64,000 bases of DNA, taken from assembly GCA_913055615.1 (NCBI GenBank), contig CAJXKK010000001.1, forward strand, positions 62,001 to 126,000, read 5' to 3'. The translations under genes and the position numbers were made by a program. Of the stretch, positions 6,791 through 52,492 are shown piece by piece (the first letter of the stretch is position 1; the number at the start of each line of letters is the position of its first letter). Under the pieces are notes generated by a model, which searched no databases, was not told where the DNA came from, and worked only from the letters and a program-made list of their open reading frames with translations. The DNA comes from an uncultured Ectothiorhodospiraceae bacterium (GTDB taxonomy: Bacteria > Pseudomonadota > Gammaproteobacteria > XJ16 > Halofilaceae).

Positions 6791-8071
6791 TTATGGCCTT
6801 GGTACGCCGATGGCGCCGATGAGATCTCCGTCGACGTAGACCAGCGGGATGCGGTCACGCTCCCACGGGGGGATGCCGTGATCGGCTAGCCAGCGTTTGA
6901 GGGCGATGCTGCCCTCGCCGTCCCGGCGCGGCAGGCGCTCGCCACCCTGGCGGAAGCGGATCTGGACGTGGCTACTCTCATCGAGAGGACCGGCCAGCGC
7001 TTCGAGCGCTTCCGGCGGGACGCGGCGGTGCGGCAGTTCTTGCGGTTGCCGCGGATCGGTCCAGTCGTAGACCGCCTCCGGGTCCAGCGGCGGCGCCGGT
7101 GCCAGCACCCAGGCCTCGCCGCGCCAGCGGCGTACTTCCCCACCGGGCCAGGCGACATGCGGATTGCGGTCGGCGGCGGCCTCGACGAGCTGCCGCCGCA
7201 GCGATTCCAGCCGCGCGGCGCCGGGGCGCGGCAGACCCCGGCGGTGGATCCAACAGCGCAGCAGCGCGCGCTGGCGGGACACCGGCAAGGCCGCCAGCGC
7301 GGCGCAGTCCAGCGTGGCGGCATACGTGCCCCGGCAGCTGACGAAATCATGCGCGGCCAGGCTGTCGACGCCCGCCGCGGCCTCGCCCGCCTGGTCGGCG
7401 GCCCGGGCGAGCGTGGCATCGACCTCGGTATGGCGTTCGCGCAGCACCGGCAGCACGCGTTCGCGCAGCCAGACGCGATCGTAGTCGGTATCCGCGTTCG
7501 CCGGGTCATCCAGCCCCTCGATGCCGCGGCGGTGCAACTCCGTCTGCAGGCGGTCGCGCGGGATATCGAGCCAGGGCCGCAGGTGCAACCCGGCGCCAAG
7601 CGTCCGGCAGACCGGCATCCCGGCCCAGCCGTGCACCCCGCCCCCGCGCAGCAGCGCGAGCAACAGGGTCTCCGCCTGGTCGTCGCGGTGGTGCGCGGTC
7701 AATAACACCTCGTCCGGGCGGAGCCGCTCGGCAAGCGCGGTGTAACGGGCCTCGCGGGCGGCGGCCTCCGGCCCTTCACCGCGCTTGGCCCCCGCATCGA
7801 CACGGACACTTTCGCAGCGCAGACCCAGTCCGCGCGCGACCTGCTGGCAGTGCTCCGCCCACGCATCCGCATCTGCATGCCAGCCGTGATGGATATGCAG
7901 CGCGCGTAGGCGGCGCCGCGGCAGCGTCTCGGCCGCGAGATGCAGCAGGAGCGTGGAATCGGGCCCCCCGCTGAATGCGACCACCACCCCGGTGCGCTGC
8001 GGTGCCTGCTCGGCGATCACGGCCGCGAGCCGTTGGTAGGGGTCCGGCGGGTCGGTCGCGCGCTCGTTCAT
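6791..8071 (-). CDS. tilS: tRNA(Ile)-lysidine synthetase TilS
   Basis: ATP-dependent attachment of lysine to C34 of tRNA-Ile(CAU), which switches decoding from AUG to AUA. With the start at 8071 (MNERATDPPDPYQRL) the protein has 426 residues, close to the family norm. The N-type ATP-pyrophosphatase P-loop SGGPDS is at residues 34-39, followed by HIHHGWHADAD, LTAHHRDDQAETLLL and the C-terminal TilS domain ending in GIPPWERDRIPLVYVDGDLIGAIG. A longer in-frame reading to 8242 adds an Arg/Pro-rich leader with no family support, so I rejected it. It lies downstream of accA, as in E. coli. Confidence 0.93.
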   Translation of the reverse strand: MNERATDPPDPYQRLAAVIAEQAPQRTGVVVAFSGGPDSTLLLHLAAETLPRRRLRALHIHHGWHADADAWAEHCQQVARGLGLRCESVRVDAGAKRGEGPEAAAREARYTALAERLRPDEVLLTAHHRDDQAETLLLALLRGGGVHGWAGMPVCRTLGAGLHLRPWLDIPRDRLQTELHRRGIEGLDDPANADTDYDRVWLRERVLPVLRERHTEVDATLARAADQAGEAAAGVDSLAAHDFVSCRGTYAATLDCAALAALPVSRQRALLRCWIHRRGLPRPGAARLESLRRQLVEAAADRNPHVAWPGGEVRRWRGEAWVLAPAPPLDPEAVYDWTDPRQPQELPHRRVPPEALEALAGPLDESSHVQIRFRQGGERLPRRDGEGSIALKRWLADHGIPPWERDRIPLVYVDGDLIGAIGVPRP

Positions 8072-48286: not shown

Positions 48287-49267
48287 TCAGCGGCGCTGCA
48301 CGCCCAGTCCGAACTGCCTGACGGTCGCCGCCGGCACTTCGCCCACGGCCGTCACCTGGTGGCCATCGATCTCGTGTCCGAACGCATGCACCGCCCCCAT
48401 CCTCGAGAGCCCGCGCAACGGCATCGCATCGGTGCCCGCCGGCTCGACGAAGATCGATACCGATGCCAGCCCATCAGTGTACACCGAGTGCTGAACGGCC
48501 TCGCCGTGCGGCGGCATCGCCTCGTTTTGGTGTGAAACCAGCCGGAATCCGGGTGGCAGCCCGGTCGTTTCCCATTCGGGATCCTCCAGCCGCGTGGAGT
48601 CCGCCGATGGATTTGCTTGGCGACTGTACTGTTCGCCCTCCAGTGAGGGCCGGAAGCGCTCGCGCCCGACCGTATCCAGTGGTTCGATATGCGTGAACAT
48701 GATGCGCTCGTAAACCGAGTCGTCGCGTCCGACCAGATCGGAACGCAGCAGCAGACCGGTCTCCCGGTCGATCCACATGCGGTAGCCATAGCGGTAGTGA
48801 TCCTCGCCGGCGATGCGAAGGATCCGGGCCTCGCGCCCGGCAACCCTGGCCGTACCCCCGAGTTCGGCCGCGTAATGTTGCGGCAGTGACCGCAGATCGC
48901 GTGGCGGTTGGGGTGCCGGCAGATCACCCGGTCGCTGATCCTCCAGCATCCGGCGTTCGGCCGGCCAGACACAGGTGACCTTATCGCCCTCGCGGATCAC
49001 CTCGAACGGTTCACCATTGAGCACGCGCAGGCGCTCGTACTCCTGGCCGTCGATATGGCCGTGTACGATCGCCAGCGATTCCAGATGGTCGCCGTGTTCA
49101 TAGACCAGCGTCCCCTCATAGGCCTGACTGAGCATGGCCTCGGCCATGCGCATCAGCAGGTCCGCGGCTTCATCCGCCGCGGCGGCCGGGGCGACGCCGG
49201 CGAGCATTATCGTCGTGAGGATGGCCGCGAGCGGCAGGCGCCACGAGCGGGGATCATGGATCCGCAT
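48287..49267 (-). CDS. rseB: sigma-E factor regulatory protein RseB/MucB
   Basis: Periplasmic protein that binds RseA and shields it from DegS. It senses lipopolysaccharide intermediates in E. coli. The 326-residue precursor has a signal peptide (about 1-31, ending APAAAA before DEAADLL). It shows the MucB/RseB fold: YEGTLVYEHGDHLESLAIVHG at the N domain and VYTDGLASVSIFVEP in the C domain. It overlaps rseA by 14 nt. A longer reading to 49318 lacks a signal peptide at its start. Confidence 0.92.
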   Translation of the reverse strand: MRIHDPRSWRLPLAAILTTIMLAGVAPAAAADEAADLLMRMAEAMLSQAYEGTLVYEHGDHLESLAIVHGHIDGQEYERLRVLNGEPFEVIREGDKVTCVWPAERRMLEDQRPGDLPAPQPPRDLRSLPQHYAAELGGTARVAGREARILRIAGEDHYRYGYRMWIDRETGLLLRSDLVGRDDSVYERIMFTHIEPLDTVGRERFRPSLEGEQYSRQANPSADSTRLEDPEWETTGLPPGFRLVSHQNEAMPPHGEAVQHSVYTDGLASVSIFVEPAGTDAMPLRGLSRMGAVHAFGHEIDGHQVTAVGEVPAATVRQFGLGVQRR

Positions 49268-49859
49268 TGAAACCGGCCAGACGGCTGCTGGGCATGACGT
49301 TGGGCATTTCGTCGGCATCCGCGAACCGGTTATGGCTGTTGAGGTATACGGTCAGACGCTGACGCACGCGCTCCTGCTCCGCCGGTCCCAGCCCATCACC
49401 GTAGGTCCCGCTCACGATCGGCACCGCATCCCCGCCAGCCGCTACCACCGTGTCGGGGGCCGTGGCGGCAACGCCCGACGCCGGTGACTCGAAGATGCCG
49501 CCGCGCAACGCCACAACGCCGCCCGCGGTGACCACGGCCACCAGGGCCGCGGCGGCGATCGCGGCACCCCCGCGCCGCCAAAGCGGCCGACGCACACCGG
49601 CCAAGCGACCGGACGCCCTGACAGGCGGCTCGGCACTCACGGCAGCGGCCACCCGCTCGCTGAAACCGGGACCGAGCAGGCCCGGCTCCGCCCCCTCCAG
49701 GCTGGCGCGTCCCGCGTGATAGCGCGCCCAGCGCGCACGCAGTTCCGGATCCTCCAGCAGCCGCCCGACAATCCGGTTGCGCGTCAGGGCCCCGAGCTCG
49801 CCGTCCACCAGCGCCGACAACGCCTCATCACCCGTCATCGATTCGGTTTTACTCGCCAT
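49254..49859 (-). CDS. rseA: anti-sigma factor RseA/MucA
   Basis: Single-pass inner-membrane protein that holds RpoE inactive until DegS and RseP cleave it. The 201 residues have an N-terminal cytoplasmic domain (TGDEALSALVDGELGALTRNRIVGRLLEDPELRARWARYH, about 9-48). A transmembrane helix lies at about 98-119 (AAIAAAALVAVVTAGGVVALRG). The periplasmic tail ends NSHNRFADADEMPNVMPSSRLAGF, a typical RseB-contacting region. The start at 49859 overlaps rpoE by 11 nt. Confidence 0.92.
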   Translation of the reverse strand: MASKTESMTGDEALSALVDGELGALTRNRIVGRLLEDPELRARWARYHAGRASLEGAEPGLLGPGFSERVAAAVSAEPPVRASGRLAGVRRPLWRRGGAAIAAAALVAVVTAGGVVALRGGIFESPASGVAATAPDTVVAAGGDAVPIVSGTYGDGLGPAEQERVRQRLTVYLNSHNRFADADEMPNVMPSSRLAGFNADP

Positions 49860-50448
49860 CGCTTTTCCCCGTCTCATCGAGCAGCGGCCGGATCGCCGAA
49901 TCGATCGCTTCGCGGGCACGGAATATCCGTGAGCGCACGGTGCCGATCGGGCAGTCCATCACGGCCGCGATCTCGTCATAAGACAACCCCTCCATTTCGC
50001 GCAGGGTCACCGCCTCGCGCAGTTCCGACGGCATCGATTCGATCGTCCGGTACACGGTCTGCTCCAGTTCAGTCGTCATCAGTGTGCGCTCGGGGGTATC
50101 GGCATCGCGCAGCAGGGCCGCATCCTCGTATTGTTCCGCATCGGTGGCATCGACCCCCTGATCCGGGACGCGCCGGCCCGCCGAGACCAGGTGGTTCTTG
50201 GCCGTGTTGATCGCGATCCGGTACAGCCAGGTGTAGAACGCGCTCTCGCCCCGGAAACTCGCCACTCCCCGCCAGGCCTTGATGAACGCCTCCTGGGCCA
50301 CGTCTTCCACCTCGGACTTATCCTGCACGTAGCGCGCGATTAGATGCGCGATCCGATGCTGATATTTCTGCACAAGCAGATCGAAGGCGGCCCGCTCGCC
50401 CCGCTGGATCCGCCGCACCAGCTCGAGATCGACCGCGCTTTCGCTCAT
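49849..50448 (-). CDS. rpoE: RNA polymerase sigma factor RpoE/AlgU
   Basis: ECF sigma factor for envelope stress. The 199 residues show region 2 (AFDLLVQKYQHRIAHLIARYVQDKSEVEDVAQEAFIKAWRGVASFRGESAFYTWLYRIAINTAKNHL) and region 4 (MPSELREAVTLREMEGLSYDEIAAVMDCPIGTVRSRIFRARE), both closely like E. coli RpoE. It is the first gene of a minus-strand run reaching to the DUF455 gene. Upstream lies a large palindromic element whose end nearest rpoE contains an outward GGAACT, the -35 core of sigma-E promoters. No good -10 follows, so autoregulation is only suggested. Confidence 0.96.
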   Translation of the reverse strand: MSESAVDLELVRRIQRGERAAFDLLVQKYQHRIAHLIARYVQDKSEVEDVAQEAFIKAWRGVASFRGESAFYTWLYRIAINTAKNHLVSAGRRVPDQGVDATDAEQYEDAALLRDADTPERTLMTTELEQTVYRTIESMPSELREAVTLREMEGLSYDEIAAVMDCPIGTVRSRIFRAREAIDSAIRPLLDETGKSDGE

Positions 50449-50486
50449 CGGGTGCGGGTCCGGACGACCGACACGCCGGTGCCATC

Positions 50487-50750
50487 AGTGGGCCATGCGG
50501 GGAGTTCCGTCACCCTCTGCGGCGCTGTGCGTACTCGCCGCAACGCGCGAGGAGCACGTGTAGCGTCACTACACAAGTGACGAGCAACGCAGCGGCGGGT
50601 GCGCACAGTGCCGCCCCTCGGGAGCGGACAGGGCGGCCTACCACGGCGTTGCGCCTCCTCGCCATGGGGCGCGCCATGACTCGTCGGCGCGCCTTGTGCT
50701 GAACCGCCCTGTCCGCCCAGAGGGTAACGGAACTCCCCGCATGGCCCACT
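50487..50750. repeat. 264-nt two-lobed palindromic element between rpoE and nadB
   Basis: Terminal inverted arms of 33 nt (50487-50519 and 50718-50750) match at 32 positions. Inside are two lobes. Lobe 1 (about 50517-50616) pairs GCGGCGCTGTGCG with a near-complement at 50588-50615. It is centred on GTGTAG/CTACAC (50558-50574), which overlaps a second hairpin CGTCACT/AGTGACG (50564-50582). Lobe 2 has 13-nt arms (50624-50636 and 50704-50716). No coding region is supported. It fills most of the 415-nt divergent gap 50449-50863. The shape suggests a non-autonomous mobile palindrome or structured RNA element. Confidence 0.8.
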
Positions 50751-50863
50751 ACGGTAGACAGTCATTGAGGGCAAAGGTTTCCGGACGAACGGGAATGAGC
50801 GGGTGCTGCGACAGCCGCCACTTGTCGTGCCAAAATACACACCCCCTATCGGACGGACAAGCG

Positions 50864-52492
50864 ATGGCCGACGCACTCGAAACCGACGTGCTGATCCTTG
50901 GCAGCGGCGCTGCCGGACTGACATTCGCCCTCCATGCCGCGGAGCACGCCCGCGTAACGGTCCTGGCAAAGGGTCCTCTGCCCGAGGGCAATACCTGGTA
51001 CGCCCAGGGCGGCATCTCCGCCGTACTCGACGACAGCGACAGCTTCGAATCGCATATCGGCGATACGCTCGATGCGGGTGCGGGCCTCTGTGACGCGGAC
51101 ATCGTCCGGTTCACGGTCGAGCACGGCCCCGAATGCATCGACTGGCTGGAATCGCTGGGCGTCGCCTTTACCCGGGAACCGGCCGGCGGCGAGGCGCCCT
51201 ACCATCTCACGCGCGAAGGCGGGCACGCCCATCGGCGGGTGATTCACGCGGCCGACGCCACCGGGCGCGCGGTAGAAACGGTGCTGATCGAACGCGCACA
51301 GACCCACCCCGATATCGAACTCCTGCCCAACCGCAATGCGGTCGACCTCATCACCGCTCAGGGCGCGGACGGACAGCGCCGCTGCGTCGGGGCCTACGTA
51401 CTCGATACCCGCGACGGGCGGGTCGAGACGATCCGCGCCCGTGCGGTTGTCCTCGCGACCGGCGGCGCGAGCAAGGTCTATCTGTACACGAGCAACCCGG
51501 ATGGGGCGACCGGCGACGGCATCGCCATGGCCTGGCGGGCCGGCTGCCGGATCGGGAATATGGAATTCATGCAGTTCCACCCGACCTGCCTGTACCACCC
51601 GCGCGCCAAATCCGCGCTGATCTCGGAAGCGGTGCGCGGCGAGGGCGGCAAACTGCTGTTGCCGGACGGCTCGCGCTTTATGGACCGGTTCGACACGCGC
51701 GCCGAGCTGGCGCCGCGCGATATCGTCGCCCGCGCGATCGACCATGAAATGAAACGCCTGGGCGCGGACTGCCTGTATCTCGATATCTCGCATCGCGGCG
51801 CCGAATTCATCCACGAACACTTCCCGAACATCCAGGCCAAGTGCCTCGAGTTCGGCGTCGACATGAGTCGCGAGCCGATCCCGATAGTCCCGGCGGCCCA
51901 CTATACCTGCGGTGGCGTAATGACCAACCGCGCCGGTCACACCGATCTCGAAGGCCTGTACGCGATCGGCGAAACCGCGTGTACCGGCCTGCACGGCGCC
52001 AACCGCATGGCCAGCAACTCGCTGCTGGAATGCCTCGTCTTCGCCCGCGCCGCGGCGCGCGACATCGCCGAACGCCTGGACGTTTTCGGCACCAGCGAGA
52101 CCATCCCGCACTGGGATGAGAGCCGGGTAACGAACTCGGACGAGGAAGTCGTGGTCGCGCACAACTGGGATGAACTGCGGCGTTTCATGTGGGACTACGT
52201 CGGCATCGTGCGCAGCGACAAACGCCTGGAGCGCGCGCGCCACCGCATCGACCTGCTGCTGGGCGAAATCGCCGAGTACTACGGCAATTTCCGCGTGACC
52301 AATGACCTGCTTGAACTGCGCAACCTCGCGCTGGTGGCCGATCTGATCATCCGCAGCGCCGCCGCCCGCCGCGAGAGCCGCGGTCTCCACTTCACGATCG
52401 ACTATCCGGAGCGGCTGCCGGTCGCGGCGCAGACCGTGCTCACGCCGCCCGCACGGAGCGTCGATCCGGTCTCCAGCGCCGGGAGCGCATGA
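50864..52492 (+). CDS. nadB: L-aspartate oxidase NadB
   Basis: FAD enzyme that makes iminoaspartate for NAD synthesis (with NadA). The 542 residues have the FAD loop [20 protein letters not shown] (about 9-28). [39 protein letters not shown]-type [12 protein letters not shown], and the C-terminal [41 protein letters not shown] follow. The last segment separates NadB from succinate dehydrogenase. It is divergent from rpoE, the usual gammaproteobacterial layout. The start at 50864 puts the FAD loop near the N terminus. Confidence 0.96.

Follow-up and report, generated by a model that had tools for sequence, protein, structure and literature searches.

Bacterial MITEs are usually viewed as remnants of one insertion sequence, with an interior of no importance. 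Several kinds of repeat described in other genomes have features in common with the palindrome found between rpoE and nadB in the window, which is the whole stretch of 64,000 nucleotides that was analysed. The ERIC, YPAL, RUP and Correia/NEMIS families are characterised, in two accounts of such elements, as small, palindromic and dispersed, with TA ends and stable stem-loop transcripts (PMC2229807, PMC10969869). Palindromes nested in larger palindromes are described for the GTAG-15 dimers of A. variabilis and the CGTC-1 dimers of H. neapolitanus (PMC3733652). For SINEs on DNA transposons, highly conserved domains are reported that are common to otherwise unrelated non-autonomous elements (PMC6887750).

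The element in the window resembles the first of these groups in size class, palindromes, TA ends, dispersal and stem-loops, but each of those families, as portrayed in the same accounts, has one set of ends, while here a module is common to different ends, genera and classes (PMC2229807, PMC10969869). It is like the REP, REPIN, GTAG and CGTC repeats in its nested palindromes, but the stems given for those are 5–13 bp (PMC3733652), while here there is a 50-nt module with conserved internal loops and no conserved GTAG. The SINE domains are eukaryotic and are presented as sequence domains with no claim of a same fold (PMC6887750), while the module here is structural. IS5-family insertion sequences (NCBIfam NF033580) and the MITEs derived from them are similar in another respect – ends and TA target match in two genomes, G124 and G277 – but the insertion sequences have no lobe, and the lobes also occur with many other ends. 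Here the interior is conserved and the ends are exchanged, the reverse of the usual view of MITEs.

The explanation favoured as a whole, and considered quite likely, is a MITE moved in trans with a conserved hairpin module inside, present in the window as an old insertion behind the -10 of rpoE. The palindrome is a MITE, and its lobe is probably a folded single strand. The arms, flanked by TA, would serve a transposase supplied in trans; the interior would consist of one or two copies of the module, combined with many unrelated ends; and the module would be retained because one strand folds, as RNA or as single-stranded DNA.

Architecture of the element

Comparison with other copies sets the limits of the element (end type A, family A) at 50488–50749, a length of 262 bp in which inverted arms enclose two hairpin lobes. 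The left terminal inverted repeat, GTGGGCCATGCGGGGAGTTCCGTCACCCTCTG, is at 50488–50519 on the plus strand and the right one at 50718–50749 on the minus strand; each has 32 nt, with one mismatch between them, and one further pair outside them accounts for the 33 nt of the earlier note. Its picture of a palindrome with two lobes between such arms was borne out by the sequence and by folding. A 301-nt stretch has a predicted free energy of -201.4 kcal/mol, while 100 dinucleotide shuffles gave -136.4 +/- 5.8 (z -11.2) without one as stable, and the element folded as DNA gives a z of -11.8. The predicted fold is a three-way junction carrying the two lobes.

Lobe 1 (50541–50590) carries the hairpin module in plus orientation (covariance model match 50533–50599, 71.9 bits, E 6.6e-16) and lobe 2 (50646–50696) carries it in minus orientation (match 50637–50704, 70.0 bits, E 2e-15); both lobes belong to the model's own alignment, and these scores are those of members, not of independent matches. 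Two overlapping hairpins in lobe 1, also described before, are both present on the plus strand. The inner one, GTGTAG-CGTCA-CTACAC (50558–50574), has a stem that covaries across lobes. The alternative, GTCAC-TACACAA-GTGAC (50565–50581), was read from the sequence and is retained in some copies only, with a compensatory change in L020 and broken in L017.

No transposase gene lies inside the 262 bp. The only ORFs of at least 80 aa across the element are one minus-strand frame that runs through it and the upstream extension of nadB, the gene for L-aspartate oxidase (50864–52492, plus strand; NCBIfam NF006567, 925.7 bits).

Copies and insertion sites

A search of 37 genomes, including the element's own (G000), gave matches in four. 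Two congeners have five further full-length copies, 82–85% identical, of which G001 holds one and G002 the other four. The G000 genome has one full copy, plus shortened or single-end copies at several places. In G000, the 13-mer GTGGGCCATGCGG occurs 16 times exactly and 52 times with at most one mismatch (reversed control, 16); solitary 13-mers are among the occurrences, and some are within coding-like surroundings. A strict-pattern scan of contigs returned one record, L035 from an Ectothiorhodospiraceae MAG, which is the same copy as that of G001. There are also bare palindromes with little beyond two arms, at L044 (1770–1796, 27 bp), L039 in G002 (1010–1064, ca. 55 bp) and L148 (ca. 65 bp), which are probably internal deletion derivatives.

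The rpoE-nadB site exists in three states – full in the window, empty in G001, and reduced to a 13-bp remnant, CGCATGGCCCACT, in G002. The flanks of seven insertion sites were searched together for counterparts in the congeners. The clearest is L019 of G002, where the element-free counterpart in G000, CAACTGGCA, has a single CTGG and the filled site, CAACTAG...CTAGCA, has CTAG on either side. The L021 element of G002 is missing in G000 and the L005 element of G000 is missing in G002, with less clean junctions. At L003 and L004 the intergenic DNA of G002 is different and a clean junction is not readable; the junctions at L021, L003 and L004 are too altered for a duplication to be read. No contiguous counterpart was returned for L016 and L020. 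These differences in presence between congener sites show that the element moved, or was lost, after the species parted.

The congener copies L017, L019, L020 and L021 have TA beyond each of their ends, and there is one informative empty site, L059. In the window, TA at 50750–50751 is the likely target, and G001, which lacks the element here, has a TA at the corresponding position; the left flank (50486–50487) is CA, presumably a decayed TA. The element is short and dispersed, in several copies, with terminal inverted repeats and with presence or absence between relatives, all as expected of a MITE. In the earlier note a mobile palindrome was one of two alternatives, with a search for further copies as a check; the dispersed copies, the congener sites without the element and the TA at its ends bear that alternative out.

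Sequence and fold of the hairpin module

Lobes 1 and 2 are homologous when the second is read on the minus strand, and the two represent one hairpin module of ca. 50 nt. The same module is found inside two more families of the genus, one with end type B (GTGTCCTTTAACGCAAG, one lobe) and one with end type C (GGGCCTGTTCACACTT, two lobes). Its sequence is roughly CAAGGCGCGnnGAnnGAnnGTAG...CTAC...GA..GA..GCAACGC, a hairpin whose pairing is interrupted at symmetric GA/GA steps and at an internal loop that is conserved.

The folding with covariance across copies that the earlier note proposed was done on two alignments, and the stems covary in both. Alignment A1 contains 25 lobes, aligned with MAFFT and not fitted to the structure; 86.6% of cells are paired, covariation is 0.537 compared to 0.193 when shuffled and at most 0.109 when slid, and 113 cells are changed on both sides, compared to 42.7 when shuffled. 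Alignment A2 contains 93 covariance matches (84 of them distinct), was fitted to the structure and has many related rows; 85.1% of its cells are paired, with covariation of 0.618 compared to 0.183 when shuffled.

Such covariation could also result from template switching or arm conversion that perfects the palindromes, with lobes of no function. The outer arms do vary together in each copy – in the six full copies they start with GTGGGCCATGC and end with CTCTG, the bases between vary in step, and the arms differ at 1–2 positions within one copy and at a mean of 4.1 between copies. However, correction would erase mismatches, while in the 84 distinct lobes the outer GA pair is 93–100% constant, as are those positions of C-AAGGC and AACGC that do not pair. 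Correction also predicts no strand bias. On the lobe strand, all pairs of A2 include 135 G-U and 8 A-C, or 87 and 8 if a single pair, G-U in most lobes, is left out, and in A1 the numbers are 45 and 6. The ratio is 51:18 outside the lobe in single-lobe elements and 2:4 in the arms of the six type A copies, where the choice of strand is arbitrary; related rows inflate all of these counts. No bias is expected from a double-stranded cause, so the excess of G-U indicates that one strand, RNA or DNA, folds. Correction of functionless palindromes is therefore unlikely to be the explanation.

Covariation and strand bias together suggest that selection probably acts on a folded single strand. An interior that is conserved while the ends are exchanged likewise implies that something selects a folded single strand inside mobile DNA. 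No RNA family of Rfam 15 accounts for the module: over the window none reached its gathering score, and the matches of five related loci and of the window stretch at E up to 1 were all below threshold and to unrelated families.

Terminal repeats and candidate transposases

For the end types GGGCCTGTTAACAC and GGCTCTGTTGACG, the matching ends and target suggest that an IS5-family transposase would move the lobed elements. In the complete genome G124, lobed elements have the ends GGGCCTGTTAACACTA, and an insertion sequence of 811–812 bp (TA included) with ends GGGCGTGTTAACACTA is present in five copies, all flanked by TA. The two frames of this insertion sequence match DUF4096 and DDE_Tnp_1; against the IS5-family model NF033580, OrfB is above the cut-off and OrfA is just below it. 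In G277, an 822-bp insertion sequence with GGTTCTGTTGACGTTT is found beside a lobed MITE with GGCTCTGTTGACGTTT. Two end types other than that of the window thus combine IS5 ends with a TA target. Further IS5 copies with TA-flanked ends are found in G093, G172, G310, G323 and G368, and the ends of L181, a lobed element from another class (GATGGTGTCGTCATGAG), resemble the ends of the insertion sequences of G310 and G323. In G124, the flank TAAGACAAACGATAACA is common to a lobed MITE at two places and an IS5 copy at another (L120, L121 and L141).

This association does not extend to every IS5 copy. The IS5 loci of G023, G093, G170, G197, G213 and G368 do not have the end strings of the lobed elements known in the same genomes (at most 9 of 12 bases match, and some loci end at a contig edge). 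Among 369 genomes, those that carry NF033580 are not enriched in the module, which is present in 14 of these 43 and in 78 of the 326 others (Fisher p 0.26). The possibility that the lobes are part of the insertion sequence itself was rejected – the insertion sequence has no lobe, and a single weak match, in L141, is outside it – and the lobes are therefore dispensable for IS5 transposition.

In the draft genomes of the three congeners (G000–G002), no partner was found for end type A. They contain no relative of IS5 OrfB and no match to NF033580 (E up to 1e-20), and no insertion sequence with the end string GTGGGCCATGCGG was seen. An IS630 partner in the genus was also considered and rejected, with no DDE_3 in the three congeners at E up to 1e-8. 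The genus of the window element may have no known enzyme left for end type A.

A REP or REPIN-type element moved by a RAYT (IS200/IS605-like) transposase would also be palindromic and intergenic, with single ends scattered through the genome, and a remnant of end type A (L057; G000:C47, about 7891–7903) lies in a broken frame that, by eye, resembles an IS200/RAYT-type transposase. Against such an element are the TA-flanked inverted ends, the IS5 partners in two relatives, whose ends are the same, and the lack of a conserved GTAG tag in the 84 distinct lobes, which make this origin highly unlikely.

Within the genus, the lobes of end type C are most similar to those of end type A (best values 0.85–0.94), compared to at most 0.83 for lobes of end type C elsewhere. 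The simplest reading of these similarities would be that a resident core recombined with new ends. Type A and type B ends abut at CTGG or CTAG in L011 and L003, which looks like the insertion of one element at the border of another. A rough gene call around 20 single-lobe elements showed no preferred orientation (7 upstream genes in the same direction and 12 in the opposite one) and so gives no support to a role within host messages.

Position relative to rpoE and the GGAACT motifs

The rpoE gene (49849–50448, minus strand; NCBIfam TIGR02939, 319.1 bits, cut-off 236) has its ATG 39 bp from the element. A predicted RpoE-type promoter of rpoE, GGAAACC-N16-GTCTACC, is at 50753–50782 on the minus strand, outside the element. 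Of three RpoE-like patterns drawn from the familiar consensus, two match this place and nowhere else in the window; the third, stricter on GGAAC, matched two other places. The promoter is conserved in G002 (L030) and recognisable in G001 (L031) as GAAACC...GTCTACC. No sigma-70 promoter was found in the region. With the element directly after the -10, transcription would begin within the right arm, and the RNA would have the element as its leader. From this predicted start, the window element probably forms the 5' leader of rpoE.

The other alternative of the earlier note, an RNA structure tied to the rpoE circuit, is upheld as to position only. As a conserved leader RNA that acts in cis on the rpoE operon, the element would be expected between the predicted promoter and the start codon, where it is, and the rpoE-sense leader RNA folds with a z of -12.0, lobe 2 forming the canonical module hairpin and the start-codon region folding apart. 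But the same site is empty in G001 and has 13 bp left in G002, so the element is not a conserved part of the rpoE circuit, and copies are found at unrelated places; a conserved leader is scarcely plausible. On the favoured reading as a MITE, the window copy would be an old insertion right behind the predicted -10 of rpoE, intact in outline.

The weakest proposal, and one close to untenable, is that an RpoE -35 box is brought in with the arms. In their consensus form, RpoE promoters have a GGAACTT -35, a spacer of 15–18 nt and a TCTGA-like -10. The arms do carry outward GGAACT as described before, at 50503–50508 on the minus strand (read 50508–50503) in the left arm and at 50729–50734 on the plus strand in the right arm. 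But these are private variants, as GGAACT (AGTTCC) is in both window arms and in none of the ten arms of the other five full copies, a lack of conservation that the earlier note had named beforehand, together with a lack of start sites near the arms, as grounds for abandoning the idea. There is no TCTGA-like -10 at the right distance from either motif (at best, 4 mismatches over -35 plus -10), and the arms thus contain no RpoE promoter of the consensus form. The window contains 45 GGAACT and four GGAACTT on both strands, with the full GGAACTT in neither arm. The import of an envelope-stress -35 box was rejected, and the GGAACT in the arms is chance variation.

The gene adjoining rpoE (49254–49919, minus strand) has a weak match to RseA (35 bits, cut-off 263).

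Distribution of the module

The covariance model R1, whose E-values are rough, had a match in 92 of 369 genomes of the class, from 75 of 272 genera (E up to 0.001). The matches are often inverted pairs ca. 40 bp apart, like those in the window. In a sample of the phylum, 45 of 398 genomes matched (E up to 1e-5), 26 of them from other classes. Numbers of matches per genome in both scans are to be read as at least the number given, with at most 13 or 12 candidates scored per genome. In the other classes, five of ten loci have TA-flanked inverted ends, some with the end GGGCCTGTTAAC.

One search took in 61 loci picked to avoid near-duplicates. A rule for TA flanks was passed by 43 of 61 loci, while by eye about 30 have TA at the apparent true ends, since about a dozen passes fell inside the arms (for example L005, L016, L023–L025, L111, L113, L115, L117, L118, L138 and L147); loci of one genome are not independent in these counts.

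The window element had no match in plasmids, and the G124 element (L122) had none in E. coli genomes. Partial matches of the G124 element were found in plasmids of Azotobacter chroococcum, Halomonas sp. PA16-9 and Methylophaga frappieri; the model confirmed lobes in the first two and gave a weak match (E 0.0017) in the third. Literature searches with the end strings returned nothing relevant, and the string GGCGCAACGCCG occurred only in work that is unrelated, judging by titles. No description of the module was found in titles or abstract openings of the open-licence literature.

A more speculative reading, possible but held only tentatively, is that the lobe is a transferable, gene-less hairpin module and that a common protein reads its loop and helps elements to multiply or persist under any ends. 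The module would then be a single-stranded RNA or DNA hairpin marked by tandem GA pairs and by an internal loop, CAAGGC/AACGC, that does not vary, and the lobe-recognising protein could be the host's or the element's. If true, the lobe, spread over several classes of one phylum, would correspond in bacteria to the conserved domains of SINEs. As the lobe motif is small, well defined and common, it is open to direct experiment, and the covariance model helps to annotate many unexplained intergenic palindromes.

One genome, G350, is rich in the family, with 107 matches to the end string per strand (at most 2 mismatches), and at three of its loci (L144 to L146) the lobe tips are inserted or replaced.
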